From an uncultured Roseicyclus sp. (GTDB taxonomy: Bacteria > Pseudomonadota > Alphaproteobacteria > Rhodobacterales > Rhodobacteraceae), in contig CANLEH010000003.1 in NCBI GenBank assembly GCA_947489665.1, positions 248,001 to 312,000 on the forward strand: a stretch of 64,000 nt of DNA, in the 5' to 3' direction. Made by a program: the position numbers and the translations under genes. Shown here piece by piece: positions 28,401 to 46,152 of the stretch. Numbering within the stretch: position 1 is the stretch's first letter; the number at the start of each line of letters is the position of its first letter. The notes beneath the pieces were generated by a model that was given only the letters and a program-made list of their open reading frames with translations, searched no databases and was not told the origin of the DNA.

Positions 28401-28466
28401 CTCAGGATGAGAGCCCCCGGTCAGGAAGGTGAAATTTGAGGTGATGGAGAGTTCCGCGAATCCCAT
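25443..28466 (-). CDS. dnaE2: Error-prone DNA polymerase DnaE2
   Basis: This 1007-residue C-family polymerase is of the DnaE2/ImuC type used in damage-tolerant synthesis. It begins with the PHP domain (FAELSITSNFTFLTGGSHPEEY). The catalytic core carries PDIDVDFEHERREEV near residue 405, and GSAANSITCFALG lies upstream of it. ATG at 28466 is chosen because an ATG at 28487 would fall inside the LexA-like box and the promoter. A good -10 (TATACT) ends about 13 bases before this ATG and there is no ribosome site, suggesting a leaderless or nearly leaderless message. The usual partners imuA and imuB are not adjacent. Confidence 0.95.
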   Translation of the reverse strand: MGFAELSITSNFTFLTGGSHPEEYARRAALLGVEAIAIADENSVAGVVRAWAELRKIGEEIEDAKEAAKDPIGPPRPNHIPPAPRAPIDHIPRLLPASRLVFTDGVEITALPRNRVGWASLCRLLSTGRLRAVKGDCDLRLSDLLERHEGLELLLHAPARITKRWLTAAEQVAKLAPALCLSPLYDGQDADRFASHARLADSLGLQTIASARPLMHHGSRRRLTDILTCVRLGIRVEELGTAAQANAEQRLRSPAEMARIFEGHEDAVVRSIEVAERCQFDIQSLRYEYPSEITEDETASERLARLARAGLEWRYPGGIPDYAQKQMEHELTLIGKLGYEPYFLTVHDIVKFARSRNILCQGRGSAANSITCFALGVTSVSPEIGTMVFERFVSEARNEPPDIDVDFEHERREEVIQHIYERYGRHRAGLCATVIHYRGKRAVREVGKAMGLSEDVLSALSSQIWGSWSKTAPEFERLAEIGLDPTSPRLQQTIRLISEIIGFPRHLSQHVGGFVITEGRLDELVPIENATMEDRTVICWDKDDIDALGILKVDVLALGMLTCVRKAFDLLQMHHQIDYTLATLPPEDPATYDMLCAADSLGVFQVESRAQMNFLPRMRPRCFYDLVIQVAIIRPGPIQGDMVHPFIRRRNGEEPVEFPSDELGRVLGKTLGVPLFQEQAMQIAITGAGFTPDEADRLRRSLATFKKHGNVSDFRTRFLKGMGDKGYDRDFAERCFSQIEGFGSYGFPESHAASFALLVYASSWLKCHHPGIFACALLNAQPMGFYAPAQIVRDAREHGVEVRPVCVNSSHWDNTMERTESGDLALRLGFRQIKSMRAEEADWIVAARGNGYRAVEDVWRRAGVEARMLTVLAEADAFAALGMSRREALWAARALTPKKELPLFAGDLDGEGIVEPAVLLPQMSEGEEVVEDYVSMRLTLRTHPVALIRDRLSPRIDPRLLVKPDVVKAPARHDFPRPQSTLPPVPVEAIGEKFPLGRVESWGSGKG

Positions 28467-28481
28467 GGTAGCGCGCAGTAT

Positions 28482-28496
28482 ATTCACGTTTTGTTC
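28482..28496. promoter_or_regulatory. LexA-like SOS box on the dnaE2 promoter
   Basis: ATTC-N7-GTTC matches the alphaproteobacterial LexA consensus GTTC-N7-GTTC with one mismatch. On the minus strand it lies immediately upstream of and next to the TATACT -10 element (about 28477-28483) of dnaE2, where LexA would block RNA polymerase. Confidence 0.7.
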
Positions 28497-32807: not shown

Positions 32808-33473
32808 TTAGCTTGCGGCCCTCGCGTCCATCGCGGTGCCATATTGCGGCAGATCGGCCTGCGTCTTGCCGTGGGCTGCCATCAGCGTGTCGCGGACATA
32901 GGCAATATGGGCGGTCTCCTCGATGATCTCGGCCAGGTATTGCGCTGCCATCAGCGTCGGGCCTGCGCCAATTGTGCCGTGATTGGCCAGCACAGCGGCC
33001 CGGATTTTCGGGTCGCGGAAAACGGGGCTGATCTCAACTTCCGTCTGCGGGCCACCGTTCGATGACAGCGGGATCAACGGCATACGCCCGATCTTTTCGA
33101 TGGTCTGCACGGTCAGGCAGGGGATTTCGATCCCCGCGCTGGCATAGCCGGTGGCCCAAGGGCTATGGCAATGGACAATGGCGTTGATGTCGTCGCGGAT
33201 GCGGTAGAGGTCGAGGTGAAAGTCGAGGTCCTTTGACGGCTTGAGCGCGACATCGCTCGGCAGGATCGTTCCGTCGAGCATCACAACTTGCAGATTGTCG
33301 CGCGTGCACTCGTTGAACCCCACGCCCGACGGTTTGATGACAATTGCATCCCTGCTGTTCAGACGCACCGACAGATTGCCACCTGCATTGGTCTGAAGGC
33401 CCCCGTCAAAGCACCGCTTGGCGGTCGCGATAAGGGCATCCATCTGGTCGTGCAGGTCGGGGAAATCAGGCAT
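32808..33473 (-). CDS. Class II aldolase/adducin family protein
   Basis: This 221-residue member of the FucA/RhaD/AraD family has the phosphate loop NAGGNLSVR near residue 29, zinc histidines in IVHCHSPWATG near 103 and ANHGTIGAG near 163. Where FucA has SSEW with its catalytic Glu, this protein reads PSKDLDFH, that is Asp, which may alter chemistry. It probably performs a retro-aldol or epimerase/decarboxylase step on a phosphorylated sugar. It is the last gene of the leftward ABC-transporter operon and overlaps the UPF0261 gene by 8 bp. Confidence 0.88.
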   Translation of the reverse strand: MPDFPDLHDQMDALIATAKRCFDGGLQTNAGGNLSVRLNSRDAIVIKPSGVGFNECTRDNLQVVMLDGTILPSDVALKPSKDLDFHLDLYRIRDDINAIVHCHSPWATGYASAGIEIPCLTVQTIEKIGRMPLIPLSSNGGPQTEVEISPVFRDPKIRAAVLANHGTIGAGPTLMAAQYLAEIIEETAHIAYVRDTLMAAHGKTQADLPQYGTAMDARAAS

Positions 33474-34605
33474 CTTCGGTCCTTTTGCTCATGGCGTTTT
33501 GTAGCGAGTCGACCGCGGCAAGGGCCGTTTCGGTCGTGTTGATGTGATCCGGAATTCGGGAAACTGTGTATGCGCGCGCTTCGGCCTCCAGCACCTCAGC
33601 CGCAATCCCTCGCAGGTTCGGGTCTTCGATCGCGCCGCCGATCCGATCCTCGTGGCTCAGCCCACCCATGGGCACGATGACGTGGCAGGGGGCCTTGGCC
33701 TCGTTCAGCAATCCCGCCAAGGCCTGGGCTTGCGCGGCCATCTCGGACTCCGTCAGCTTGATGTGGGTGAAATAGGCGGAGTGTCGGTAATGGGGGCGTT
33801 CCAGATGTTCGGGCGAGACTGTGCTGATCTCACCCAAACCAATGAAGTTGAGGCCACCGGGCAGAACAACACGCGGCAGGTGATTGGCGCAGGAGAACCG
33901 GGTTGGCATGGGCACATGAGCCCCTGCCAGACGCAGTCGCCCCAGCTCGTGCACGTTCAGGTCGATGACACCGGCCACCGGGCTTTCCGCCACGAACCGC
34001 GCAAAGGCTGCGCCGCCATAGCCGTTGGCGTGGAAGACTGTGGGCTCGAAGTTATGGGTGCCCAAAAGTCGGGCCACTTCGGCCCCGGCGCGTCCTGTGG
34101 CACCTAGAGTGGTGACCGCCACCGCAGTCGCCCGCTCCGCTGAAGGGATGTGCGCCCGGTAAAGCCCCGCCACCATTGAAGCTGCGTTTTCGAACACCTG
34201 CCGCAGCATGGGGTTCAGACCCTCGATATCGCAAAGCGTCGGGATCAACGTGATCGCTGTGTCGGCAAGCGCCGCGCGGGGGTCGAAGGCCATCGTTGTG
34301 ATCAGCACTTTGGGATAGACCGCCGGCAAGCCCTTGAGGGCCGCCAACACAATCTCACCCCCCGTGCCGCCGCCGACGCCGAGTGCGACGTAGCATTCAT
34401 CACACATTGCCGCGATGTGGGCCGCCGCCTGCTGCGCACGCTCTTCCATGCGCTTCAGCTTTTCCGCGCCCGACAGCACCGTGCCGCCTGCGCCAAGCGA
34501 GACATCGACACGCTCGACCTCCAGCCCGTTGCGCGCAAGCGCATCGGACAGGTAGCCAAGCTCGACCCCCTTGGTTTCGAACGTTCCGATCAGCAAGACC
34601 TTCAT
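33466..34605 (-). CDS. Tm-1-like ATP-binding domain protein (UPF0261)
   Basis: This 379-residue protein starts VLLIGTFETKGVELGYL and carries GVGGGTGGEI near residue 76, both hallmarks of UPF0261 (related to the N-terminal domain of tomato Tm-1). The family binds nucleotide but its bacterial enzyme role is unclear to me. In many genomes it sits next to a PEP-hydrolase-like TIM-barrel gene; here that partner is missing and a class II aldolase follows instead. It starts 4 bp after the permease stop within the ABC operon, so it likely acts on the imported compound. Confidence 0.85.
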   Translation of the reverse strand: MKVLLIGTFETKGVELGYLSDALARNGLEVERVDVSLGAGGTVLSGAEKLKRMEERAQQAAAHIAAMCDECYVALGVGGGTGGEIVLAALKGLPAVYPKVLITTMAFDPRAALADTAITLIPTLCDIEGLNPMLRQVFENAASMVAGLYRAHIPSAERATAVAVTTLGATGRAGAEVARLLGTHNFEPTVFHANGYGGAAFARFVAESPVAGVIDLNVHELGRLRLAGAHVPMPTRFSCANHLPRVVLPGGLNFIGLGEISTVSPEHLERPHYRHSAYFTHIKLTESEMAAQAQALAGLLNEAKAPCHVIVPMGGLSHEDRIGGAIEDPNLRGIAAEVLEAEARAYTVSRIPDHINTTETALAAVDSLQNAMSKRTEDA

Positions 34606-34609
34606 TGGG

Positions 34610-35545
34610 TCAGCCTTTCACTGCACCAGCCGTCATGCCAGTGATGATCTGCCGCGACGCAAACAGTGTGAACAGGATCGGCGGAATGGCCAGCAACATG
34701 CCAGTGGCAAAGATCGTGCCAAGGCCGTCGAATTCGGATGCGTTGTTCACGATCAGGATCGGCACCGTCATGGTGTCCCGATCTGCCAGCGCCGACGCGA
34801 GCAGATACTCGTTCCAGGCGATGCGGAACGTGAAGATCGACGCCGCCGCAAGACCCGGCTTGATCAAGGGAAGCACGACCAGGAAGAAAACCTGGAATGG
34901 CCCGGCGCCATCGACACGGGCAGCTTCCTCAAGCGATTTCGGCACCTGCACGATGAAGCTCTGCAGGATCCAGATCACAAACGGCAGGTTCATTGCCACG
35001 TAAACGATGATGATGCCTGAATGCGTCCCTGCAAGGCACACATCCCCGCGCCCACCGAAGGTGTCGCGGATCCAAGCGCCAAGCCCGTAGTCATTGTCGA
35101 GGCAGAAAGCGTTGTTCCAAAGCCCAAACACCGGCACCAGTAGAACCGCAGGCGGGATCATCCGCACGGCCAGCGTAGACAGCGAGACCGTGTCGCGCCC
35201 CATGAACTTGAACCGCACCAGCGCATAGGCCGCCATGCAACCGAAAATCAGCGTGAGCGCGGTGGAGATCAGCGCAATGATGATCGAGTTGATGAAGGCC
35301 CCGCCAAACCGGATCTGACAAAACCGCAGATGTTCGGGCTCGTACCACAGGATATCGCACAACGCGGTCTCGTAGTTGCGGATCGTGGGCATGAAGATCA
35401 GCCCGCCCACGCCCGACGTAATATCCACGTCCAGCCGCATCGAATTGGCCAGCAGGATGATCACCGGCCCAACGCTCATCAGGATCAGGATCGCAATCAG
35501 AACGTAGAAGGCCGGGTTCTGGCGGTCGTAATTGGTGTCAGCCAT
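34610..35545 (-). CDS. Sugar ABC transporter permease, MalG-type
   Basis: This 311-residue inner-membrane protein has six predicted helices and the EAA loop EEAARVDGAGPFQVFFLVVLPLIKPG near residue 215 that contacts the ATPase. It has the size and layout of MalG/UgpE-type CUT1 permeases, with a longer periplasmic loop between the first helices that contains several cysteines. It starts 3 bp after the partner permease stop. Confidence 0.92.
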   Translation of the reverse strand: MADTNYDRQNPAFYVLIAILILMSVGPVIILLANSMRLDVDITSGVGGLIFMPTIRNYETALCDILWYEPEHLRFCQIRFGGAFINSIIIALISTALTLIFGCMAAYALVRFKFMGRDTVSLSTLAVRMIPPAVLLVPVFGLWNNAFCLDNDYGLGAWIRDTFGGRGDVCLAGTHSGIIIVYVAMNLPFVIWILQSFIVQVPKSLEEAARVDGAGPFQVFFLVVLPLIKPGLAAASIFTFRIAWNEYLLASALADRDTMTVPILIVNNASEFDGLGTIFATGMLLAIPPILFTLFASRQIITGMTAGAVKG

Positions 35546-35548
35546 GGC

Positions 35549-36472
35549 TCAACCTTCCTCTTCTGCGGCGAATTTCAACTTGCGCGACCGCGCCTCGGTC
35601 CAGCGGTTGAAGGCAAACATGCCAAGCGTCAGCAGCATCAGAAGCATCAGCAGGTAATTCGACATCGCCGCCGCCTCACCCAACTCGCGGAACTCCCGCG
35701 CCGTCCGCGCAATCCGCAAGGCAAGGATTTCGGTCGACAGGCCGGGTCCACCGCCGGTCATCACCAGGATCACCTCAAGCACCTTGAACGCATCAATCAA
35801 GCGCAGCAGCATGGTCACAACCAACACCGGCGCCATCAGCGGCAGTTTGATGAACCACACCTGTTGCCACCCCGTCGCGCCGTCGATGCGGGCAGCCTCC
35901 AAAGCCGAGCGCGGCAGGGATTGCAACGCGGCGAGGCTGAGAATGAAAATAAACGGCGTCCACTGCCAGATGTCGGCGAAAATGACGCTCAGAAGCGGGT
36001 TCTGCCCCAGCCAATCGACCGGGCCTATGCCCAGGAGGTTGCCCCACCACGTATCCCCGATCCAATTCAGGAACCGGTTAAACGTGCCGTAGGTCTGGTG
36101 AAACATGAAGCGCCAGACAAGACCCACAACCACCGGCGCGATCATCATCGGCAGGATAAAAAGCGTCCGCAGCACGGACATGCCGCGAATATTTCGGTCC
36201 AGCAAAAGCGCTAGCCCCACCCCGATCACCATTTCGACCACCACAACGGTGAAGGCAAAGATCAGCGTGACCGAAAAGCTTTCCCAGAAGAACGCATCGC
36301 CCCAGAGCCGTACGTAATTGGCAAAACCGACGAATTCAGTCTCCGAGATATTCTGCGTCGGGTCCCAGTCGCGGAAGCTGCCCCACATCATGTAGCCGAT
36401 TGGGTAAAACAGCGCCAAAGCCATAACGAGGGCCGCCGGAGCGATGAACAGATAAGGGGTCGAGCGGTTCAT
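35549..36472 (-). CDS. Sugar ABC transporter permease, MalF/UgpA-type
   Basis: This 307-residue permease has six helices, beginning with the TPYLFIAPAALVMALALFYP segment, and an EAA loop (LEAARIDGATGWQQVWFIKLP) near residue 200. It pairs with the following MalG-type permease to form the CUT1 channel. It is separated from the binding-protein gene by 112 bp with two strong hairpins, a gap often seen where binding protein must be made in excess. Confidence 0.92.
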   Translation of the reverse strand: MNRSTPYLFIAPAALVMALALFYPIGYMMWGSFRDWDPTQNISETEFVGFANYVRLWGDAFFWESFSVTLIFAFTVVVVEMVIGVGLALLLDRNIRGMSVLRTLFILPMMIAPVVVGLVWRFMFHQTYGTFNRFLNWIGDTWWGNLLGIGPVDWLGQNPLLSVIFADIWQWTPFIFILSLAALQSLPRSALEAARIDGATGWQQVWFIKLPLMAPVLVVTMLLRLIDAFKVLEVILVMTGGGPGLSTEILALRIARTAREFRELGEAAAMSNYLLMLLMLLTLGMFAFNRWTEARSRKLKFAAEEEG

Positions 36473-36504
36473 TGGGGTCTCTCAGCATGGGGCCCTTAAC
36501 GGAA

Positions 36505-36568
36505 CCCCCGGGCACGTGCTGGACGGTCCGGGGGCCGGGAGAAGACCCGCCGCATCACGCGCGGCGGG
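36505..36568 (-). other. Two intercistronic hairpins after the binding-protein gene
   Basis: CCCCCGG/CCGGGGG arms lie at 36505-36511 and 36528-36534, and CCCGCCGC/GCGGCGGG arms at 36546-36553 and 36561-36568. They sit between the binding protein stop and the first permease on the minus-strand transcript. Such structures usually attenuate transcription or protect the upstream message. Confidence 0.55.
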
Positions 36569-36584
36569 CCCAGAGCTCACTGGC

Positions 36585-37919
36585 TTACTGCCAGGTGTAG
36601 TAGCCTTCTTCTTCCATCAGGGCGCGGGTGCGCTCTGCGATGCCGTCCAGGGCTTCCTGCGGGTCAAGACCCTCGGTCAGAACCTGAGACATCGTGGTGC
36701 CGATATCGGCATTGATGCGGCCCCATGGCGGGATGATCGGGCGCCAATCGGGATCAGCATCGGCCAGAGCCTCACCAAAGGTCGACGACCAGGGGTACTG
36801 GGCGTTCAGCTCTTCATTGGCATAGGTCGAGAAGCGCGATGGGTTACCACCGGCCATTGCGACGGCCAGATCGCCTTCACGGCTGGTCAGCCACTGCATC
36901 AGCAGGAAAGCTGCTTCCGGGTTGGCTCCGTTGCGCGGAATGGCGATGCCGAAGCCACCGGTCTGCGACGCAGCACGGACACCCACGGGATGCGGAGCCC
37001 AACCAACATTACCTGCCACGGTCGAGCGGCTTTCGTCCTCAAACGTCGCGGCGAACGCGATGGAGTCGAGGAACATGGCCGCCTGGCCTTGGGCAAACGC
37101 ATTGGCTGCTTCTGCCGGACCAAACGCCGACGAGCCTTCCGGACCACACTCAACGATGGAGCGCAGGGCTTCCGCTGCGGCTACACCTTCGGGCGAGTTG
37201 ATGGTGGGGTCCCAACCGTCGCCAAAGACACGACCGCCAAGGGGGGCGAGGTGCAGAAGGAACGCGTGCGAGGCCTGGTGGCCCGATGCCGCGCGGGAGG
37301 CGACGCCACCCATGCCCGGAACAAGCTCAGGGATTTCACAGGCCAGAGCCAGGAAATCGTCATAGGTTTCCGGCACTTCCAGACCATGCTCTTCGAACAC
37401 GTCCGTCCGATAGTAGAGCACCGACGTCTCAGACCCGAACGGCAGGCCGTAAAGCGAACCTGTCGGACCAGGTAGATAGCCACGTTCGCCACCGGCGACG
37501 CCGATGTTCTGGACGTAGCCGTCGATCAGGTCTTCAGCGTCATAGTTCGGATCGGCCAGACGCGGGTTCATGAAGAACGGCGCAAGGTTCAGGATCTGAT
37601 CTGCGTAAACGTAATCGGCCTTAGAGAAGACCACATACGCGATCATGTCATAGGCGCCTTCGTCCAAGGCTAGCTCAAGCGTCTGACGCTCGCGCATATC
37701 GAGGTAGGGAAGCATATCCACCTCGACCTCGATGCCCGTCTGTGCAGTGAATTCCGGCAGCACTTCCATCACAGCGTTGTAATGGGGGTGTGCAGGGAAG
37801 TTCACAACAAGCGTTGTCCCTTCATATTCCGCGTACGGGTTGGAATGCCCGTCTGCGAAGGCCGCGCCGGTCATTGCGACCCCGGCGACCATAGTTGTTG
37901 CTAAGAGTCTTTTCAGCAT
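36585..37919 (-). CDS. Extracellular solute-binding protein (CUT1 ABC transporter)
   Basis: This 444-residue periplasmic protein has a signal peptide (MLKRLLATTMV to GAAFA, about residue 22) and family 1 binding-protein features, including the Trp-rich C-terminal end. GGGAGG lies 6 bases before the ATG at 37919; ATG at 37925 would have no spacing. Size and neighbours point to a sugar, polyol or glycoside ligand. It is encoded between the ATPase and the permeases in one operon. Confidence 0.92.
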   Translation of the reverse strand: MLKRLLATTMVAGVAMTGAAFADGHSNPYAEYEGTTLVVNFPAHPHYNAVMEVLPEFTAQTGIEVEVDMLPYLDMRERQTLELALDEGAYDMIAYVVFSKADYVYADQILNLAPFFMNPRLADPNYDAEDLIDGYVQNIGVAGGERGYLPGPTGSLYGLPFGSETSVLYYRTDVFEEHGLEVPETYDDFLALACEIPELVPGMGGVASRAASGHQASHAFLLHLAPLGGRVFGDGWDPTINSPEGVAAAEALRSIVECGPEGSSAFGPAEAANAFAQGQAAMFLDSIAFAATFEDESRSTVAGNVGWAPHPVGVRAASQTGGFGIAIPRNGANPEAAFLLMQWLTSREGDLAVAMAGGNPSRFSTYANEELNAQYPWSSTFGEALADADPDWRPIIPPWGRINADIGTTMSQVLTEGLDPQEALDGIAERTRALMEEEGYYTWQ

Positions 37920-37952
37920 ACTCATCCTCCCAGTTTGCTGATCGGGCACCGT

Positions 37953-39041
37953 TTACAGTGCCGTTTCCGTTGTCTTGTCGAACAGGTGCAGCCCCTCAGG
38001 CCGCACTGCAAAGCGCAGGGTTTCCCCTAACGCGATAGGTGTTTCTGATTTCAGCTCGACCGTGACCTTGGCGCCGCCGCAGTCACAGATCAGCACGGAT
38101 TGTGCGCCGATATATTCCGAGACCACGACATTCAGATCGAGGCTCTGATCGGCGGGTGCATTTGCGTCGAACTCCAGATCCGAAGGGCGAATGCCGAGGG
38201 TCGCTTGATGCACCGCTTTCTGCTTCGCGCGCGCGGCCAATGTATCTGGCAGCCGGATATCAAAGCCCTGACCCTTGGCGCGCAGGTCGCCGCCGTCTTC
38301 CACAAGGTCAGCCTCAAGGAAATTCATCGGAGGGGACCCAAGGAAGCCCGCGACGAACTTGTTGACCGGGTTCTTGAACAGCTCAGTCGGCGTGCCCTGT
38401 TGTTGAATATGGCCGCCGTGCATCACAACGATCCGATCGGCGAGGGTCATGGCCTCGATCTGGTCATGGGTGACGTAAATCATATTCTTTTTCACGTTCT
38501 GACGCATAAGCGCCAGTTCCGCCCGCATCTGCCCGCGCAGCTTCGCGTCAAGGTTCGACAGCGGCTCATCAAACAGGAACGTGCTGGCATCGCGGCATAG
38601 CGCGCGCCCCATGGCGACACGCTGACGTTGACCGCCTGACAATTCACCGGGTTTGCGCGCAAGAAAATCGGACAGGCCAAGCATCTCGGCCACTTCCTTG
38701 ACCTTCTTATCGATCACGTTCTGCGGGGTCTTCTGCAGGCGCAGGCTGAAGGACATGTTCCGCGCGACATTCATGTGCGGGTAAAGCGCATAGTCCTGGA
38801 AGACCATCGCGATGTCCCGATCCTTTGGGTCCTTCGCGCTGATCGGCTGGTCGTTCATGTAAATCTCACCGTCCGAAACGGTCTCCAGCCCCGCCAGCAT
38901 GCGAAGCGTCGTGGACTTGCCGCAGCCTGAGGGGCCCACCAACACGGTGAATTCGTGCTCGGCCATCTCAAGCTCAATGCCATGCAGGACCTCAACGGCC
39001 CCATAGCGCTTCACCAAATTCTCTAGGCGGATCGTCGGCAT
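37953..39041 (-). CDS. Sugar ABC transporter ATP-binding protein, UgpC/MalK-type
   Basis: This 362-residue ATPase has Walker A GPSGCGKST near residue 36, the signature LSGGQRQRVAMGRAL near 134, Walker B LFDEPLSNLDAK near 157 and a C-terminal regulatory OB (TOBE) domain. GGGAAGGGA precedes the ATG at 39041. The open frame extends further upstream but carries no similarity there. It is the first gene of the leftward operon, and its promoter region holds the TGTATACA operator 35 bp upstream. Confidence 0.95.
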   Translation of the reverse strand: MPTIRLENLVKRYGAVEVLHGIELEMAEHEFTVLVGPSGCGKSTTLRMLAGLETVSDGEIYMNDQPISAKDPKDRDIAMVFQDYALYPHMNVARNMSFSLRLQKTPQNVIDKKVKEVAEMLGLSDFLARKPGELSGGQRQRVAMGRALCRDASTFLFDEPLSNLDAKLRGQMRAELALMRQNVKKNMIYVTHDQIEAMTLADRIVVMHGGHIQQQGTPTELFKNPVNKFVAGFLGSPPMNFLEADLVEDGGDLRAKGQGFDIRLPDTLAARAKQKAVHQATLGIRPSDLEFDANAPADQSLDLNVVVSEYIGAQSVLICDCGGAKVTVELKSETPIALGETLRFAVRPEGLHLFDKTTETAL

Positions 39042-39075
39042 TGATTCCCTTCCCCGGACTTTCAAACAGCATTCT

Positions 39076-39090
39076 GTATACAAACTTGAT
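39076..39090. promoter_or_regulatory. GntR-type operator, copy 1
   Basis: TGTATACAAACTTGA contains the palindrome TGTATACA and is identical over 15 bp to 39883-39897. It lies between the divergent ABC-ATPase and GntR genes, 35 bp before the former. FCD-type GntR proteins often bind TTGTATACAA-like sites. Confidence 0.72.
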
Positions 39091-39169
39091 TGTAAATATC
39101 CAAAATTGCATTTTCCTCGATTGTGGGCTAAGAAGATTGCGATACACAGGCTCAACGAAAGGGGCCCAG

Positions 39170-39835
39170 ATGCCGAAAGATTCAGGAAAACAAGCGCCGA
39201 ACGGGCGCGGCTCAACAGTCCGGCGGATCGAAGCCACTTTGACTGAAGAGATTTCCGCCGGGGCGCTTTCGCCGGGCGAGCGAATTGACGAAGTGAAGCT
39301 GACCGAAAGATTTGGCGTGTCGCGCACGCCAGTGCGTGAGGCCCTGTCGCGATTGGTCGCCCAAGGCATCCTGATTCCGGGCGAAAAACGTGGAGTTCGG
39401 GTCGCCGAATATACACGAGAGCAATTGGCGCAAATATTTGAAGCCATGCATGAAATTGAAGCTGCATGTGCCCGCGTTGCGGCTCAACGACTGACCCTTT
39501 TGTCCAGAGTCGAGATTGAGGCCGCGCAGGCTGATTGCATGGCTGCGGCCGAGGCTGGGGACCGTTCCTCTTACCTTAAGGCGAACGAGGCATTTCACCT
39601 CGCCATCTACAAGGCGACCGGCAATCCTTACATGGCCGAAATCGCGTCGGAGTTCCGCAATCGCACCGGCGCTGCACGGGCCAAAAAATTTGCCAAGCCT
39701 GAGGATTTGCTGGCATCGGCGAAAAGCCACGAAAGCTTGGTTGCCCTCATTTTCTCAGAGGATTCGGACGCCGCGTCAGACGGCATGCGTGAGCATATGG
39801 CGCGCTCTTTCAAAGAAACTTTGGCGGTCAACTGA
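39170..39835 (+). CDS. GntR family regulator, FCD (FadR-like) domain
   Basis: This 221-residue protein has an N-terminal winged helix (LTERFGVSRTPVREALSRLVAQG near residues 43-65) and an all-helical FCD effector domain with metal-ligand-type residues in the ANEAFHLAIY segment. GAAAGGGG precedes the ATG. It sits between two operons whose fronts share an identical 15-bp operator, so it likely represses both and is released by a pathway acid or sugar intermediate. Confidence 0.93.
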   Translation: MPKDSGKQAPNGRGSTVRRIEATLTEEISAGALSPGERIDEVKLTERFGVSRTPVREALSRLVAQGILIPGEKRGVRVAEYTREQLAQIFEAMHEIEAACARVAAQRLTLLSRVEIEAAQADCMAAAEAGDRSSYLKANEAFHLAIYKATGNPYMAEIASEFRNRTGAARAKKFAKPEDLLASAKSHESLVALIFSEDSDAASDGMREHMARSFKETLAVN

Positions 39836-39880
39836 CGAGCTGCGCATTTTTCGACTTGCATTCGCACACATAGATGTCAG

Positions 39881-39897
39881 TTTGTATACAAACTTGA
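39881..39897. promoter_or_regulatory. GntR-type operator, copy 2
   Basis: TTTGTATACAAA (39881-39892) is a perfect 12-bp palindrome, and its 3' part extends to match copy 1 over TGTATACAAACTTGA. It lies 30 bp before the start of the metallo-hydrolase gene, where bound repressor would block the rightward promoter. Confidence 0.75.
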
Positions 39898-39921
39898 CTC
39901 GAGACGCGAAGGGATGTGCGA

Positions 39922-40857
39922 ATGGGCGTTCAGGAAACCAAAATCTACCCGATCAACACCGGCTGGCTGGAGGCCGATCTCGGCACTTACATCTTTTGGA
40001 AGGGCCCTGCGGGTAAGAAGTACTGGAACCCTGTCTACTGCCACTACGTAGATACGGGCACCCACAAGATCCTGATCGACACCGGCCTGTGTGACGCAGA
40101 ACGTGCCACCAAATATCACCACAAATGCGACAAGCGCGGCTGCCTCGAAGTGCACGATCACCTCGAACAAAAGCTTGGCGTTCATCCGGATGAGATTGAC
40201 GCGATCGTATTCACCCACCTGCACTGGGACCACGTGCAGAATATGAAGAAGTTCAAAAACGCCCGCTACATCGCCCCCAAGGCCGAGATCGAAATGGCCT
40301 ACAATCCCTTGCCCCTCTACTACCGCACCTACGAATCCGGATACCTGGGTATCGAGCCCGCGTATGCCGGTTGTGTTTTCGAGGCAGTCGAAGATGAATG
40401 TGAAGTCCTGCCCGGCATCACCATGTTCCACACTCCCGGCCACTCGGTCGGTCACATGGCTGTCACAGTCGCAACCTCAGCAGGCGATATCGTTATCGCG
40501 GGCGACGCGATTTTCGTCGAACGCAATCTGGCACCAAACCCGGCGGAAGGCTGGCGTTACTGGGTGCCTGCCCGCTTCGTGAACTCTTATGAAGGCTGGA
40601 AGTCGGTGGAAGAGCTCGACAAACGCGCCGACTACATCTTGCCGTGCCACGACGCCGAGGCAAACGGGCGTTCGGACGTCTTTCCATATAAGGGCATGCC
40701 GCTTCGCAAGCGTCGGCAGACAATCCCTGGTTTCCAGTTCTACTTCGGCGACATGCCAGACGGCGCGGTCGAAAAAGCAGCGCCCGCAATGCCGCGCGAC
40801 GAGGTCAATGGCTATCTTGCGGGCCTGAAAGACCCCAAGGACATGGCCGAAAGCTGA
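39922..40857 (+). CDS. Metallo-beta-lactamase-fold hydrolase (lactonase-like)
   Basis: This 311-residue enzyme has the dinuclear zinc motif THLHWDH near residue 94, a later histidine in TPGHSVGH near 175, the aspartate in IAGDAIF near 195 and a histidine in LPCHDAEA near 239. This pattern is typical of the N-acyl-homoserine lactonase/pyridoxolactonase branch. In this operon a sugar lactonase is more likely than quorum quenching. GAAGGGA precedes ATG 39922. Three bp separate it from the HAD gene. Confidence 0.85.
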   Translation: MGVQETKIYPINTGWLEADLGTYIFWKGPAGKKYWNPVYCHYVDTGTHKILIDTGLCDAERATKYHHKCDKRGCLEVHDHLEQKLGVHPDEIDAIVFTHLHWDHVQNMKKFKNARYIAPKAEIEMAYNPLPLYYRTYESGYLGIEPAYAGCVFEAVEDECEVLPGITMFHTPGHSVGHMAVTVATSAGDIVIAGDAIFVERNLAPNPAEGWRYWVPARFVNSYEGWKSVEELDKRADYILPCHDAEANGRSDVFPYKGMPLRKRRQTIPGFQFYFGDMPDGAVEKAAPAMPRDEVNGYLAGLKDPKDMAES

Positions 40858-40860
40858 CCC

Positions 40861-41661
40861 ATGCAGGCGCTTGATAGCCTTCTGGCGGTGGCGGACCAAT
40901 TCGACGCCGTTGTGCTGGACCAATGGGGCGTGCTGCATGACGGCACCACGCCTTATCCCGGCGCTGTAGACGCGATTCACGCATTGAGGTCATCGGGTAA
41001 GCGTCTTGCAGTCCTTTCCAATTCCGGGAAGCGCGCGGCGCCGAATGCGGACTGCATAGCGGCGATGGGCTTTCCCGGCGACATGTTTGAGATCGTGATG
41101 ACCTCGGGCGAGGCGCTTTGGCAAGACATTGCAGCGGGACGTGTGCCGCACACGCGCTTCCACCCGATCACCCGCGACGATGGCGATGCCGAAAGATGGG
41201 CCGACGGTCTCGACATCACGCTGACCTCTGATACGCCGGACGCGGTCTTGCTTATGGGTCTGCCCGATGAAGGGGCTGTGCATGTGCTGCCCGATCTACC
41301 GGTCTATTGCACCAACCCCGATCGCGCTTCTCCGCGCGCGGGTGGTAAAACGGTCGTCTCACCTGGCGCGCTCGCGCACGATCACAAAGACAAGGGCGGC
41401 GATGTGACGTTCTACGGCAAACCCCATCTGCCGATTTTTCGCGCTGTCGAGACCGCCCTAGGCACCTCTAACCTGCTGATGGTGGGCGATAGCCTGGAAC
41501 ATGACATCGCCGGTGGGCACCGGGCTGGTTGGTCCACGGCCTTCATCCGTGGGGGCCTCCACGCAAGCGCGATGGCCGGCGACGCCGAAACCGCGATCCG
41601 CACCCTTGCGGCCAAGGAAAACGCGCCTCTCCCCACATATCACCTTTCTCATCTAGGGTAG
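40861..41661 (+). CDS. HAD-IIA family phosphatase
   Basis: This 266-residue protein of the HAD class IIA (NagD/PGP-like) family has motif I VVLDQWGVLHDG near residue 18 (the nucleophile is the Asp in VLDQW, while the usual second Asp is replaced by Trp-Gly spacing typical of this subfamily), motif II VLSNSGKR near 52, and motif IV LLMVGDSLEHDIAGG near 206. It likely dephosphorylates a sugar-phosphate or clears a dead-end product of the pathway. It lies between the lactonase-like and aldolase genes with gaps of 3 and 4 bp. Confidence 0.85.
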   Translation: MQALDSLLAVADQFDAVVLDQWGVLHDGTTPYPGAVDAIHALRSSGKRLAVLSNSGKRAAPNADCIAAMGFPGDMFEIVMTSGEALWQDIAAGRVPHTRFHPITRDDGDAERWADGLDITLTSDTPDAVLLMGLPDEGAVHVLPDLPVYCTNPDRASPRAGGKTVVSPGALAHDHKDKGGDVTFYGKPHLPIFRAVETALGTSNLLMVGDSLEHDIAGGHRAGWSTAFIRGGLHASAMAGDAETAIRTLAAKENAPLPTYHLSHLG

Positions 41662-41665
41662 TTGC

Positions 41666-42601
41666 ATGTCTCAACCTGTTGAATTCGACGCGTTCCGCGC
41701 CCTCTCCGCCCGCCTCGGCCAAGACCCGCTTCGCGTGCAGGGGCCTGGCGGGAACACCTCTATCAAGGAAGGCGGGACCATGTGGATCAAGGCTTCAGGC
41801 ACCGAGTTGGCTGATGCCGAAACAAAGGACATCTTTGTCGCCGTCGACCGCGAAGCGGCCAGGGCCGAGGCCCATGGCGCAGGGGATGGGACCTGCAAGG
41901 CGACTGTTTTGGACCCTTCCCAAACCCTTCGCCCATCTATTGAGACGACCTTTCACGCTGCGCTGGACTGGCCTGTCATTGCCCACACCCATTCCATTGC
42001 CACTCTTACTCACGGTGTCAGCACCAAGGGGCGCGTCGTTGCGGCTGACAAACTGGCGGATCTGCCTTTTGTTTCAGTGCCCTATGCAAAACCGGGCCTG
42101 CCTTTGACGCGTGAAATCCTGTCTCGGGTCACTGCTCAGACCCAGGTGATTATGCTGGAAAACCATGGGCTCATTATCTGCGGCTCAAGTGTTCAGGAGG
42201 TGCACGACCTGACGGAGACGGTGGAGGAACGCCTCGCCATGGCCCCACGCGGCGAGGTGGACCAATCTGATGCTACCTATAGTTGGATCGCCCGGGACGC
42301 CCGCGCATGCGCGCTGGCTCAGGCTGGCTCCTACTACCCTGACCACGTGGTCTTTCTTGGGCCTGCTCTGCCGGTGCGAGACAGCGATGCCAAGCCGCCC
42401 GTCATTCTGCACCCCGGCAAGGGCATTGCCTTGCGCGACGATGCGACTCCAAGCCAAAAGGCCATGTTGCGGTGCCTGTCTGACCTGCTGATCCGCCTGC
42501 CTGAAGACTGGGTGCCCGAAGCCATCGGCGCCGAGGCTGAGGCGGAGCTTCTGAATTGGGACGCCGAGAAATACCGGCAGGCTCTGGCGGCTCGGCAATG
42601 A
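41666..42601 (+). CDS. Class II aldolase family protein, second copy
   Basis: This 311-residue protein is longer than the aldolase at 32808. It has QGPGGNTSIKEGGTMWIKASG near residue 24, PSIETTFHAAL with the catalytic Glu near 92, zinc histidines in IAHTHSIATLTHG near 106 and ENHGLIICG near 170. It resembles the aldolase half of bifunctional rhamnulose/fuculose aldolase-dehydrogenases, without the dehydrogenase. It overlaps the FGGY kinase by 4 bp (ATGA), so the kinase product is its likely substrate or a close relative. Confidence 0.88.
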   Translation: MSQPVEFDAFRALSARLGQDPLRVQGPGGNTSIKEGGTMWIKASGTELADAETKDIFVAVDREAARAEAHGAGDGTCKATVLDPSQTLRPSIETTFHAALDWPVIAHTHSIATLTHGVSTKGRVVAADKLADLPFVSVPYAKPGLPLTREILSRVTAQTQVIMLENHGLIICGSSVQEVHDLTETVEERLAMAPRGEVDQSDATYSWIARDARACALAQAGSYYPDHVVFLGPALPVRDSDAKPPVILHPGKGIALRDDATPSQKAMLRCLSDLLIRLPEDWVPEAIGAEAEAELLNWDAEKYRQALAARQ

Positions 42602-43860
42602 CCCTTTCGCTTGGCCTGGATTTGGGCACCTCGGGTTTGCGCTCTGCCGTGGTGGATGCGTCGGGAGCTGTCCTTGCGCAAGCGCGCGCAGCCTATCCCG
42701 GCGATGCATCCTCAGATGCGGAGGTCTGGTGGGCCGGTGCTTTGGACTGCCTCAGGTCTCAAATCGAGTGCCTACGCACCGCGGGATATGATCCGTCAGA
42801 GATCACGCGCATCGCGGTTGACGGCACCTCTGGCAGTGTCGTTCTGACCGATGCCAACCTGCGCCCAGTGACGCGGACGTTGATGTACAACGATGGCGGG
42901 TTCAGCGACGAGGCCGCCCTGATTGCAAAATTCGCGCCAGATCCGCACATCACTCGCGGTCCGGCATCTGCCTTATCCCGGGTTCTGCGGCTGCGATCCG
43001 AAGCCGCGAACGGGGTAGTCAAGCACCTCATGCATCAGGCGGATTTCATCGCAGCACGACTCAGCGGTGTCGGCGGCGTATCCGACCAAAACAATTCTCT
43101 GAAAACTGGGTTTGATCCCGAATCCGGCACTTGGCCCGATTGGTTTGCGCCCATGGGTCTGAATCGCTCGCTCCTGCCAAAAGTGCTGCCAGCAGGCACT
43201 GCGTTTGCGGAGGTGCGTACCGACCTTGCCGATCAGCTTGGCCTGTCACCACACGCAACGGTGCACACTGGCACGACAGATAGCATTGCAGCCTTCCTTG
43301 CGGCCTCGCCGTTGGAGCGCGGAGCTGCCGTCACGTCGCTTGGCACTACGTTGGCCATCAAAATCCTTAGTGAAGAACGGTTCGATGCACCGGAGATTGG
43401 GCTCTATTCCCATAAGATCGGGGATTTCTGGCTCGTTGGGGGTGCGTCGAACACGGGCGGGGGTGTGCTTGCCCACTTCTTTTCGCCCGGCCAGATGAAG
43501 TCGCTGTCTGCCCGGATTGATCCATCCGTTCCAAGCGAGCTCGATTACTACCCGCTTCTGAACCCGGGTGAGCGTTTCCCGATCAACGATCCAAATTATC
43601 CCCCTCGGATGGAGCCAAGACCGTCGGACGATGCCGCCTTTTTTGGTGGCTTGCTTGAAGGGATCGCGCGGATTGAGGCCCAATGCTACGCAGCGATCCA
43701 GGCGGGGGGAGGTCCAGTGCCAAAGACGATCTTCACGGCAGGTGGCGGTGCCCAAAATCCCGTATTCACGGCCATCCGATCGCGCGTTATCGGCGCGCCT
43801 ATCGAAAGTGCGGCAACGACAGAAGCCGCAATCGGCGTCGCAAAGCTCGCTAACCTTTAG
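42598..43860 (+). CDS. FGGY family carbohydrate kinase, D-ribulokinase-like
   Basis: This 420-residue kinase is shorter than glycerol or xylulose kinases (about 490-500). The phosphate-1 motif is LGLDLGTSGLRSAVVD at the N-terminus, AVDGTSGSVVL lies near residue 77, and the C-terminal adenosine motif is FTAGGGAQNPVF near 380. The DGTS motif and the size resemble the D-ribulokinases of cyanobacteria and plants. It probably phosphorylates a ketose, with the upstream aldolase cleaving the product. It is the last gene of the rightward operon, with tRNA-Lys just after it on the other strand. Confidence 0.85.
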   Translation: MTLSLGLDLGTSGLRSAVVDASGAVLAQARAAYPGDASSDAEVWWAGALDCLRSQIECLRTAGYDPSEITRIAVDGTSGSVVLTDANLRPVTRTLMYNDGGFSDEAALIAKFAPDPHITRGPASALSRVLRLRSEAANGVVKHLMHQADFIAARLSGVGGVSDQNNSLKTGFDPESGTWPDWFAPMGLNRSLLPKVLPAGTAFAEVRTDLADQLGLSPHATVHTGTTDSIAAFLAASPLERGAAVTSLGTTLAIKILSEERFDAPEIGLYSHKIGDFWLVGGASNTGGGVLAHFFSPGQMKSLSARIDPSVPSELDYYPLLNPGERFPINDPNYPPRMEPRPSDDAAFFGGLLEGIARIEAQCYAAIQAGGGPVPKTIFTAGGGAQNPVFTAIRSRVIGAPIESAATTEAAIGVAKLANL

Positions 43861-44053: not shown

Positions 44054-44893
44054 ATGTCCAACGCAGACTCATATCCCGGCCTTCCTTTTCTCAAGATGCA
44101 TGGCCTCGGCAATGACTTCGTTGTTGTTGATGCCCGGGGCGAATCCCGGACGATTACGTCCGCTTTGGCGCAGGCGCTCGGCGACAGGCATCGTGGAGTT
44201 GGGTTTGATCAGTTGGCCGTTATTGAAACCGGTACCGACGCTGACCTGGAGCTTGCATTCTGGAATGCGGACGGCTCGACCTCCGCGGCTTGCGGGAACG
44301 CAACCCGCTGCATTGCGCGGCGCGAGATGGAGCTGACCGGCAATCATCGCATCACCTTGCGGACTGAGCGCGGTGTTCTGGAGGCCGTGGATGAAGGCAA
44401 TGGCCTGACCTCCGTGAACATGGGCCAGCCCGTGATGGCTTGGCAGGGCATTCCGCTGAAAGGCGCATGTGACACGCTGCATTTGCCCATTGATGGCGCG
44501 CCTGTTGCGACTGGCATGGGCAACCCGCACTGCACGTTCTTTGTGGACGACGCTGACGCGGTTGATCTTGAAACTTTGGGTGCGAAATTCGAACATCATC
44601 CGCTGTTTCCGGAACGAACCAATGTGCAATTTGCGCATGTGGTTGGCCCCGATCACCTCAGAATGCGGGTGTGGGAACGGGGTGTTGGTGTGACGCTTGC
44701 CTCTGGCTCGTCCTCATGTGCGGTTGCGGTGGCAGCGGCGCGACGGGGGCTGACCGGGCGCAAGGTGCGCCTGACCCTCGATGGCGGCGAAATCGCGATT
44801 GATTGGCGCGACGATGGGGTCTGGATGACTGGCCCCACGGCACATGTCTTTTCGGGCGAGCTTACGCCTGCGTTCCTGGACAGCCTTGAATGA
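44054..44893 (+). CDS. dapF: Diaminopimelate epimerase with variant active site
   Basis: This 279-residue protein interconverts LL- and meso-diaminopimelate for lysine and peptidoglycan. It has the family start FLKMHGLGNDFVV and the first catalytic cysteine in AACGNATRC near residue 77 (usually CGNGxRC). The second site, ERGVGVTLASGSSSCA near 215, has Ser where the usual ACGTG or ACGSG carries the second catalytic Cys. I recall this variant in other Rhodobacterales, so it is probably functional. ATGs at 44045 and 44054 and a GTG at 44030 are possible starts. The stop overlaps mtaB by 4 bp. Confidence 0.9.
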   Translation: MSNADSYPGLPFLKMHGLGNDFVVVDARGESRTITSALAQALGDRHRGVGFDQLAVIETGTDADLELAFWNADGSTSAACGNATRCIARREMELTGNHRITLRTERGVLEAVDEGNGLTSVNMGQPVMAWQGIPLKGACDTLHLPIDGAPVATGMGNPHCTFFVDDADAVDLETLGAKFEHHPLFPERTNVQFAHVVGPDHLRMRVWERGVGVTLASGSSSCAVAVAAARRGLTGRKVRLTLDGGEIAIDWRDDGVWMTGPTAHVFSGELTPAFLDSLE

Positions 44894-46152
44894 GCAATCC
44901 GCCCGTGTTCCACACGCTCGGTTGCCGGCTCAACGCATATGAAACCGAAGCGATGCGTGAGATGACGCAGGCCGCTGGAGTGGCGGATGCGGTGATCGTG
45001 AATACCTGCGCGGTGACGTCTGAAGCAGTGCGCAAGGCGCGGCAGGAAATTCGCAAGCTGCGCCGCGAGAACCCCAAGGCGCGATTGATCGTGACCGGCT
45101 GCGCGGCCCAGACCGAACCGCAGACTTTCGAAGCGATGGATGAGGTCGACCTTGTCTTGGGCAATACCGAAAAGATGCAGCCTGAGACCTGGGCCAATCT
45201 GCCCACTGATTTCATCGGTGAAACCGAAAAGGTCAGGGTCGATGACATCATGTCGGTGGAAGAAACGGCAGGTCACCTGATCGACGGATTTGGACGGCAT
45301 CGGGCTTATGTCCAAGTCCAAAACGGCTGCGATCATCGCTGCACGTTTTGCATCATCCCCTATGGCCGCGGAAACAGCCGCTCGGTCCCAGCCGGTGTTG
45401 TGGTCGAGCAGATCAAGCGGCTGGTGGATCGCGGGTTTAACGAAGTCGTGTTGACCGGGGTCGATCTGACGTCTTGGGGTGCTGACTTGCCGGGGGAACC
45501 TAAGCTTGGTGATCTGGTCATGCGCATCCTCAAGCTGGTGCCGGACCTGCCGCGGATGAGGATCAGCTCCATCGACTCGATTGAGGTGGATGAAAACTTG
45601 ATGCAGGCCATAGCGACGGAGCCGCGCTTGATGCCGCATCTTCACCTGTCGCTACAACACGGTGATGACCTGATCCTGAAACGAATGAAACGCCGCCACC
45701 TGCGCGACGATGCAATTGCCTTTTGTGAGGAGGCCAAACGCCTGCGCCCTGACATGACCTTTGGTGCGGACATCATCGCGGGCTTCCCGACAGAGACTGA
45801 GTCGCATTTCGAGAACTCGCTGAAACTGGTCGAAGATTGCGACCTGACTTGGCTTCACGTATTTCCCTATAGCCCTCGCCCGGGCACGCCTGCTGCCCGT
45901 ATGCCGCAGGTCAGCGGCAAGGCTATCAAAGAGCGTGCGGGCCAATTGAGGCGCAAGGGGGAAGATCGCGTGAAGTCTCACCTGTCCAAACAGATAGGGC
46001 AGAAACACAACATACTTGTCGAAAAGCCCCGCTTGGGGCGCACAGAACAATTCGCCGAGGTTGTGTTCGACCATGATCAGCCCGAGGGACAGATTGTCCA
46101 AGCCCAGATCGCTGGCGCAACGGAACGCCAACTTGTGGCGTCTCACCAGTAG
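44890..46152 (+). CDS. mtaB: tRNA t6A37 methylthiotransferase MtaB
   Basis: This 420-residue radical-SAM enzyme adds a methylthio group to t6A37 in tRNAs reading ANN codons. The N-terminal UPF0004 domain has HTLGCRLNAYE near residue 10 with further cluster cysteines in VNTCAVT and VTGCAAQ. The radical-SAM motif is CDHRCTFC near residue 145, and a TRAM-like domain ends the protein. GCRLN rather than GCQMN favours MtaB over MiaB or RimO. It is coupled to dapF through an ATGA overlap. Confidence 0.95.
   Translation: MSNPPVFHTLGCRLNAYETEAMREMTQAAGVADAVIVNTCAVTSEAVRKARQEIRKLRRENPKARLIVTGCAAQTEPQTFEAMDEVDLVLGNTEKMQPETWANLPTDFIGETEKVRVDDIMSVEETAGHLIDGFGRHRAYVQVQNGCDHRCTFCIIPYGRGNSRSVPAGVVVEQIKRLVDRGFNEVVLTGVDLTSWGADLPGEPKLGDLVMRILKLVPDLPRMRISSIDSIEVDENLMQAIATEPRLMPHLHLSLQHGDDLILKRMKRRHLRDDAIAFCEEAKRLRPDMTFGADIIAGFPTETESHFENSLKLVEDCDLTWLHVFPYSPRPGTPAARMPQVSGKAIKERAGQLRRKGEDRVKSHLSKQIGQKHNILVEKPRLGRTEQFAEVVFDHDQPEGQIVQAQIAGATERQLVASHQ

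Follow-up and report, generated by a model that had tools for sequence, protein, structure and literature searches.

Conservation of a divergent eleven-gene block

What could a locus degrade that joins a sugar-type importer and a lactonase-like hydrolase to two different class II aldolases, a sugar kinase and a protein of the UPF0261 family, and do these genes belong together at all? These questions are raised by positions 32808-43860 of a 64,000-nucleotide stretch of DNA from an uncultured Roseicyclus sp. (contig CANLEH010000003.1, positions 248,001 to 312,000; this whole stretch is referred to as the window, and coordinates are those of the window). The segment holds 11 genes in two divergent operons around a gene for a GntR/FCD regulator, and comparison with related loci indicates that these 11 genes are one conserved unit, far beyond chance. 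With a probability of about 0.3, we read the unit as a predicted GntR-controlled system for the catabolism of a small, polyhydroxylated compound that is a lactone or resembles a sugar acid; the substrate class and every reaction proposed below are deduced from protein family and motif.

A scan of genome contigs with the block's metallo-beta-lactamase (MBL)-fold hydrolase as query yielded 56 loci, which represent 55 distinct places because L075 and L157 (from genome G736) are the same DNA. All 11 genes are present in unchanged order and orientation at 40 of these 56 loci. Among the remainder, 7 are truncated by contig ends, five lack the ATP-binding cassette (ABC) transporter genes alone (L026, L028, L045, L064 and L067), three lack the HAD gene (L042, L050 and L062, the last also cut by a contig end) and one, L079, is unrelated. 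Judged by record titles, the carriers belong mostly to Rhodobacteraceae or roseobacter genera, together with some alphaproteobacterial metagenome-assembled genomes (MAGs), one member of the Tepidamorphaceae and one Rhodospirillaceae MAG; titles of culturable carriers include Yoonia maricola, Roseicyclus mahoneyensis and Sulfitobacter algicola. In a family sample of 198 genomes, one per genus by tally, the MBL protein was found in 14, spread patchily across genera. The second aldolase, ald2, occurs in 21 genomes that include all 14, and the block's own clade of UPF0261 proteins (at least 42% identity, with the next match at 35%) occurs in 13, every one of them among the 14 MBL carriers. In the fourteenth, G098, only 3.2 kb of contig remain at the start of the MBL gene, and the UPF0261 gene would lie past the contig end; in G139 the two genes lie on separate contigs. 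What places the unit beyond chance is the retained order at 40 of 56 loci, together with the fact that its genes turn up jointly in the same 13-14 of the 198 genomes. The initial annotation had treated the two operons as a single GntR-controlled block of catabolic type and proposed a neighbourhood comparison; that comparison bears out both the co-conservation and, with the shared palindrome described below, the single block.

Conservation is uneven within the unit. Over the 40 complete loci, median identity is highest for MBL (87%, range 80-89), followed by the first aldolase, ald1 (84%), the permeases (79 and 71%), the solute-binding protein (75%), the ATPase (71%), GntR (68%), ald2 (67%), the kinase (58%), the HAD protein (53%) and UPF0261 (47%).

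A shared candidate operator

Two operator-like palindromes lie on either side of the regulator gene (39170..39835, plus strand; PF00392 and PF07729). One, TCTGTATACAAA (39073..39084), precedes the divergent genes and the other, TTTGTATACAAA (39881..39892), precedes MBL; both are conserved across loci. With at most one mismatch, the pattern TTTGTATACAAA recurs in the 180 bases upstream of GntR in 45 of the 56 locus rows (44 of 55 distinct places); for the gap from GntR to MBL the count is 47 of 56 (46 of 55), while none of 1120 base-shuffled copies of this gap reaches that level; the pattern was derived from the window and the compared loci are related by descent. Since 9 of 100 shuffles of the window contain two such sites at up to two mismatches, the pair alone would be weak evidence. 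The conservation, on the other hand, makes a strong case that the two operons are jointly regulated through a shared candidate operator, as had been supposed initially. L064 and L067, where UPF0261-ald1 alone stands beside GntR, keep the palindrome at 0-1 mismatches, and at L042, L054 and L065 it diverges by at least three mismatches on both sides. A genome-wide regulon search returned 4 sites at up to one mismatch compared with 3 for a reversed control, and so makes no case for targets beyond the two block sites.

Components of the block

Moving outward from the regulator, the minus-strand arm encodes an ABC ATPase of the UgpC subfamily (37953..39041; 445 bits, cut-off 432), a solute-binding protein (36585..37922; PF01547), two permeases (35549..36472, PF00528 at 9e-18 and conserved in order; 34610..35545, PF00528, with a top NCBIfam score of 90.9 bits to MalG that does not reach the cut-off of 261), a UPF0261/Tm-1-like protein (33466..34605; PF06792/PF23189) and ald1, of the class II aldolase/adducin fold (32808..33473; PF00596 at 1.6e-37). 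On the plus strand, GntR is followed by the MBL-fold hydrolase (39916..40857; PF00753), a HAD-IIA protein (40861..41661), ald2 (41666..42601; PF00596) and an FGGY kinase (42598..43860). With start codons of our choosing, neighbours within an arm share at most 8 bases or lie no more than 112 bases apart. Family scans recovered every gene and family listed in the initial annotation, including a complete CUT1 importer (solute-binding protein, two permeases and a MalK/UgpC-type ATPase). In the same domain and family scans, none of the 11 proteins matched an oxidoreductase or isomerase family. The closest solved relatives of the solute-binding protein are 5iai and 4rya (the latter named a sorbitol-binding protein), whose ligands we take to be ribitol and mannitol, respectively. 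As its structural model has middling confidence (predicted local distance difference test score, pLDDT, of 73), these fold matches say little about the ligand.

The MBL protein resembles 4-pyridoxolactonase and N-acyl-homoserine lactone lactonases (3aj3) and carries the metal motif THLHWDH, which is present in 65 of 76 distinct homologous sequences, the other 11 being shortened; this fold and motif predict a lactonase. The motif P-S-K-D of ald1 recurs in 55 of the 56 distinct homologues that reach 60% identity; ten rows of 26-33% identity were set aside before this count. The Lys of PSK[D/E] is common to ald1 and E. coli YgbL (OtnC) and is not found in AraD, UlaF or FucA; that it marks OtnC rests on YgbL as the one reference. 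YgbL is also the nearest of these E. coli proteins in the alignment (31%, against 28, 27 and 22%), and ald1 is a predicted C-C lyase or decarboxylase. In ald2 (motifs PSIE, HTHS and NHG; RhaD-N-like by weak scores), Glu93, His107, His109 and His167 are invariant in eight aligned rows and supply the catalytic Glu and three metal-binding His of the fold.

The kinase was initially described as D-ribulokinase-like, an assignment upheld by its match to SePSK/AtXK-1 structures (5htr, E 4e-94; 5htn, 3e-84); D8, T11 and D228 are invariant in three rows and correspond to D8, T11 and D221 of SePSK. D-ribulose kinase activity has been demonstrated for SePSK and is limited for AtXK-1, and the available excerpts of that work leave the site of phosphorylation unsettled. 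The HAD protein belongs to the expected family (TIGR01459, 145 bits, cut-off 103.75), but its label as a phosphatase is uncertain, because motif I lacks the usual second Asp. HAD phosphatases use this residue, the general acid/base of DxD. The window's protein has DQWG here; of 73 distinct homologues, 72 read D-Q-[W/F/Y]-G and one was unreadable.

For UPF0261, the structural model is confident (pLDDT 91) and its nearest folds are Tm-1 (3wrw-3wry) and 9mpy, a Novosphingobium protein and the only bacterial UPF0261 structure returned by our searches. The Pfam family neighbouring that of Tm-1 is named as ATP-binding. A TBST gene (PEP_hydrolase family) is labelled beside UPF0261 in 21 of 27 other loci fetched from the class sample. 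The block protein forms its own clade, and its neighbour is ald1 in place of this usual partner. Co-evolution of UPF0261 with TBST is reported in PMC5028733, and late up-regulation of one UPF0261 gene in a brown-rot fungus in PMC6867892; the portions of these two papers available give no activity for the family, and it goes unmentioned in those of PMC11837543 and PMC11323797.

Predicted pathway and comparison with known systems

In our preferred reading, the ABC importer would take up the substrate, a lactone or ester that, once opened by MBL, would yield a 3-oxo (beta-keto) sugar acid. UPF0261 and ald1 would together convert this acid to a ketose or ketose phosphate, with ald1 removing carbon as an OtnC-like decarboxylase or C-C lyase. 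The FGGY kinase would phosphorylate the ketose, ald2 would split the ketose phosphate to dihydroxyacetone phosphate (DHAP) and an aldehyde such as glycolaldehyde, and the HAD protein would be accessory. An oxidoreductase would be dispensable here because lactone opening would already yield the 3-oxo acid. The absence of such an enzyme from the block, its aldolase and ketose-type kinase, the resemblance of MBL to lactonases and the OtnC-like motif of ald1 would all suit a substrate that arrives as the lactone or enol form of a 3-oxo acid. Further points in favour of this reading are the aryl ketone (acetovanillone) that the title of 9mpy names as bound, the position of UPF0261 next to ald1 and not TBST, the closeness of the binding protein to 5iai and 4rya, and the OtnC enrichment and neighbouring Otn genes described below. 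Such a system would constitute a compact, patchily spread pathway in many roseobacter-type bacteria and some other Alphaproteobacteria, and would offer a testable catabolic role for UPF0261, a family also present in plants and fungi.

The annotation considered the block to fit no described pathway, and we found none for the whole gene set in the openly licensed PMC literature, which leaves subscription journals mostly outside. The tetronate pathway (LtnD, OtnK, OtnC and OtnI) resembles it in placing a PSK[D/E] class II aldolase-fold enzyme beside a protein that possibly uses ATP, and in having Otn genes close to the block in two genomes. The block differs in having no dehydrogenase, no OtnK (DUF1537 is absent from the 11 proteins) and no OtnI, with UPF0261 instead, and in an ald1 that lies far below the OtnC cut-off. 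The phosphorylative L-fucose and L-rhamnose pathways share an FGGY kinase and a class II aldolase able to give DHAP and an aldehyde; the block has no isomerase, its kinase is of the SePSK subfamily, and ald1, UPF0261 and MBL are additional.

Canonical OtnC scores above cut-off in 73 of the 198 family genomes, comprising 9 of the 14 with the block and 64 of the 184 without it (one-sided Fisher p 0.03, post hoc). Closer linkage is seen at G171, where the opposite strand carries LtnD, OtnK, OtnC and OtnI genes past the kinase, and at G126, where about 3 kb with two genes, one of them a second GntR gene, separate ald1 from OtnK and OtnC. The 70 block loci include 9 repeats and thus represent 61 distinct places, and these two are the only ones with OtnK within the fetched flanks. 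A stronger tetronate link considered earlier (2 of 9, computed chance 0.002) is weakened to 2 of 61 over all distinct places, and the link is suggestive at most.

L-Ascorbate use by the E. coli ula system likewise combines a lactonase with a class II AraD-like enzyme and no oxidoreductase; UlaG is an MBL-fold lactonase. The phosphotransferase system, UlaD and UlaE families of ula are absent from the block, whose MBL scores with the 4-pyridoxolactonase group and which has an extra kinase, a second aldolase and UPF0261. That the substrate is L-ascorbate itself, or an ascorbate-like enediol lactone, degraded by a route independent of the phosphotransferase system, seems improbable to us as a specific proposal. 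In that route, MBL would give 3-keto-L-gulonate, UPF0261 and ald1 would decarboxylate it to L-xylulose, the kinase would make L-xylulose-1-phosphate, and RhaD-like ald2 would release DHAP and glycolaldehyde; relatives with sulfatases would use esters like ascorbate-2-sulfate. It would accord with the lack of an oxidoreductase and with the mild enrichment of threonate-type (OtnC) genes in carriers, and if true it would be the first role of UPF0261 in sugar-acid breakdown.

Several observations weigh against the lactone or sugar-acid reading as a whole. MBL falls under every listed lactonase cut-off (for NF047925, 87.6 bits against 325). For ald1, whose family scores all stay under their cut-offs, the OtnC model NF043034 gives 89.9 bits against a cut-off of 250, and the top NCBIfam score is to an L-ribulose-5-phosphate 4-epimerase model (109.5 of 251 bits). 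The title of 9mpy names bound acetovanillone, an aryl ketone, so that its ligand is aromatic and not a sugar, and the missing activity for UPF0261 in the two papers above is a further difficulty. An identification of UPF0261 as the acetovanillone kinase (HpeHI/AcvAB) was rejected on the published Hpe assignments: in the parts available, PMC12167813 describes HpeH and HpeI as dikinase parts homologous to rifampin phosphotransferase, and PMC9618137 assigns the remaining Hpe proteins as carboxylase, phosphatase, CoA synthetase and hydrolase. The HAD motif and the kinase are also awkward, the kinase subfamily suggesting conversion of D-ribulose to D-ribulose-5-phosphate, which needs no aldolase. 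Finally, OtnC is missing in 5 of the 14 block-bearing genomes, OtnK proximity at 2 of 61 places is near the edge of chance by a rough count, and in the window's own genome a true OtnC lies on another contig with OtnK not labelled beside it. Because the OtnK link amounts to only 2 of 61, we lowered our probability for this reading from 0.35 to 0.3.

Some of the same evidence would suit plain pentose or pentulose catabolism, in which the kinase would form D-ribulose-5-phosphate, ald1 would be an AraD-like 4-epimerase, and MBL, HAD and UPF0261 would clean up side reactions. The SePSK/AtXK-1 subfamily of the kinase, the top score of ald1 and its AraD-like Asp in place of the Glu of FucA are all as expected for this. 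We nevertheless regard it as rather unlikely, given that MBL, the most conserved protein of the block, would be an odd clean-up enzyme, that no sugar isomerase or dehydrogenase was matched among the 11 proteins, and that the Lys of ald1 sits where AraD has Ser.

An exchangeable kinase-ald2-HAD module

The block was initially described as one functional unit. It is indeed a conserved unit, but its kinase-ald2-HAD part is not specific to the system, and trees indicate exchange. We fetched 46 ald2 loci from family, class and phylum samples. The kinase is nearby in 32 of them. HAD accompanies it at 29 of these 32 loci and a second class II aldolase at 26, half of which (13) are the block itself; among the 19 kinase-bearing loci of other types, 13 have such an aldolase. 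A rule that the module always adjoins a second aldolase is thus not upheld. Of the 14 ald2 loci without the kinase, 10 lack HAD as well as a second aldolase; judged by eye, several of these 10 resemble neighbourhoods for polysaccharides or sugar nucleotides. The distant ald2 homologues L124, L126, L129, L130, L153 and L154 lie in such neighbourhoods by eye, near a HAD nucleotidase-like gene but not the kinase of the module.

Outside the block, the contexts with the module are polyol-type clusters with a two-ATPase importer, an EryA-like kinase, GlpD and mostly a FucA-like aldolase; clusters with a short-chain dehydrogenase/reductase and a FucA-like gene; and clusters with an FGGY kinase and a RhaD-resembling fusion of aldolase and short-chain dehydrogenase/reductase. 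The polyol-type clusters (L082-L084, L118 and L120) share the module in a form exchangeable with that of the block; a D-2-hydroxyacid dehydrogenase-like gene is among their own features, and they lack UPF0261, MBL and ald1. In G003 (L086), the upstream genes of the block are joined to an ald2-kinase pair of polyol type, its kinase grouping with L082 (100/97) and its ald2 with L082 and L083 (100/99). Conversely, G090 (L089) has an ald2-kinase pair nested in the block's clade and housed in a RhaD-like cluster. These groupings point to kinase-ald2(-HAD) as an exchangeable module common to other clusters, which poses a second, more general question.

A rival to the preferred reading would be re-assimilation of an aldehyde by two aldolases. 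Here ald1 (FucA- or RhaD-like elsewhere) would release glycolaldehyde, ald2 would join it to DHAP as a pentulose-1-phosphate, HAD would strip the C1 phosphate, and the kinase would act at C5 to give D-ribulose-5-phosphate. This would explain why a phosphatase and a kinase adjoin and agrees with a D-ribulokinase-type kinase, with the frequency of HAD and a second aldolase near kinase-bearing ald2 (half of the latter cases being the block), and with the swaps at L086 and L089, where the clusters involved share an aldolase step. It is harder to reconcile with the 6 of 19 other kinase loci that have no second aldolase among our queries (L081, L146, L148, L150, L152 and L087, a 6.9-kb contig), or with L081 and L149, where an EryA-like kinase and a GlpD-like gene accompany ald2 as the sole class II aldolase found. 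HAD is moreover absent from G003 as well as from 3 of the 56 MBL loci, and its motif I is atypical for a phosphatase. On balance, we consider this explanation doubtful.

Other ald2 loci add variants. L123 (G227, a 1.4 Mb alphaproteobacterial genome) has HAD-kinase-ald2-FucA-like genes beside GlpD and, by eye, a glycerol-kinase-like gene. The polyol-type L149 (G823) also has a D-2-hydroxyacid dehydrogenase and lacks the module kinase and HAD. At L122 and L125 (G483 and G390), UPF0261 and a TBST gene adjoin a RhaD-like gene and a kinase-HAD-ald2 module, with a GlpD-like gene and a second FGGY-like kinase nearby.

Transport variants and neighbouring genes

Some loci that lack the ABC genes carry other transporters. 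L045 and L115/L241, a single group whose sulfatases are 89-93% identical, have the block next to genes for TctA, TctC and three members of the sulfatase family that show no signal sequence by eye; in this other lineage the run converges on ald1 (L241 1600-9600, L045 1-7300). L026 has TctC, a TctA-like gene and one sulfatase, two sulfatase genes adjoin the block at a contig end in L028/L242, and L067 has tripartite ATP-independent periplasmic (TRAP) transporter and TctA genes. In some of these relatives, the tripartite tricarboxylate transporter (TTT) and sulfatases would probably take up sulfated forms, and anionic, perhaps sulfated, forms of the substrate are thus probably processed by the same core as well.

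A broader proposal is that the block is the core of a sulfated-sugar scavenging system whose sulfatases were lost or are encoded elsewhere in most carriers. The sulfatase genes at these loci are what speaks for it. We hold it to be improbable as a general account, since the 40 complete loci have the ABC importer instead (sulfatases were not searched for there), the flank of L064, which has no ABC importer, shows neither TTT-type or TRAP transporter nor sulfatase genes, and at L241 the operon of TTT and sulfatase genes comes with a GntR gene of its own and matches the operator pattern only at 2 mismatches.

Beyond the kinase, the window carries genes that we name by eye as dapF and mtaB (44057-46152); in G003 the same pair (L086 1-1900) lies beyond ald1, at the opposite end of the block. 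Further away, a gene of 1014 amino acids at 25443-28487 reads by eye like an error-prone DnaE2/ImuC polymerase.

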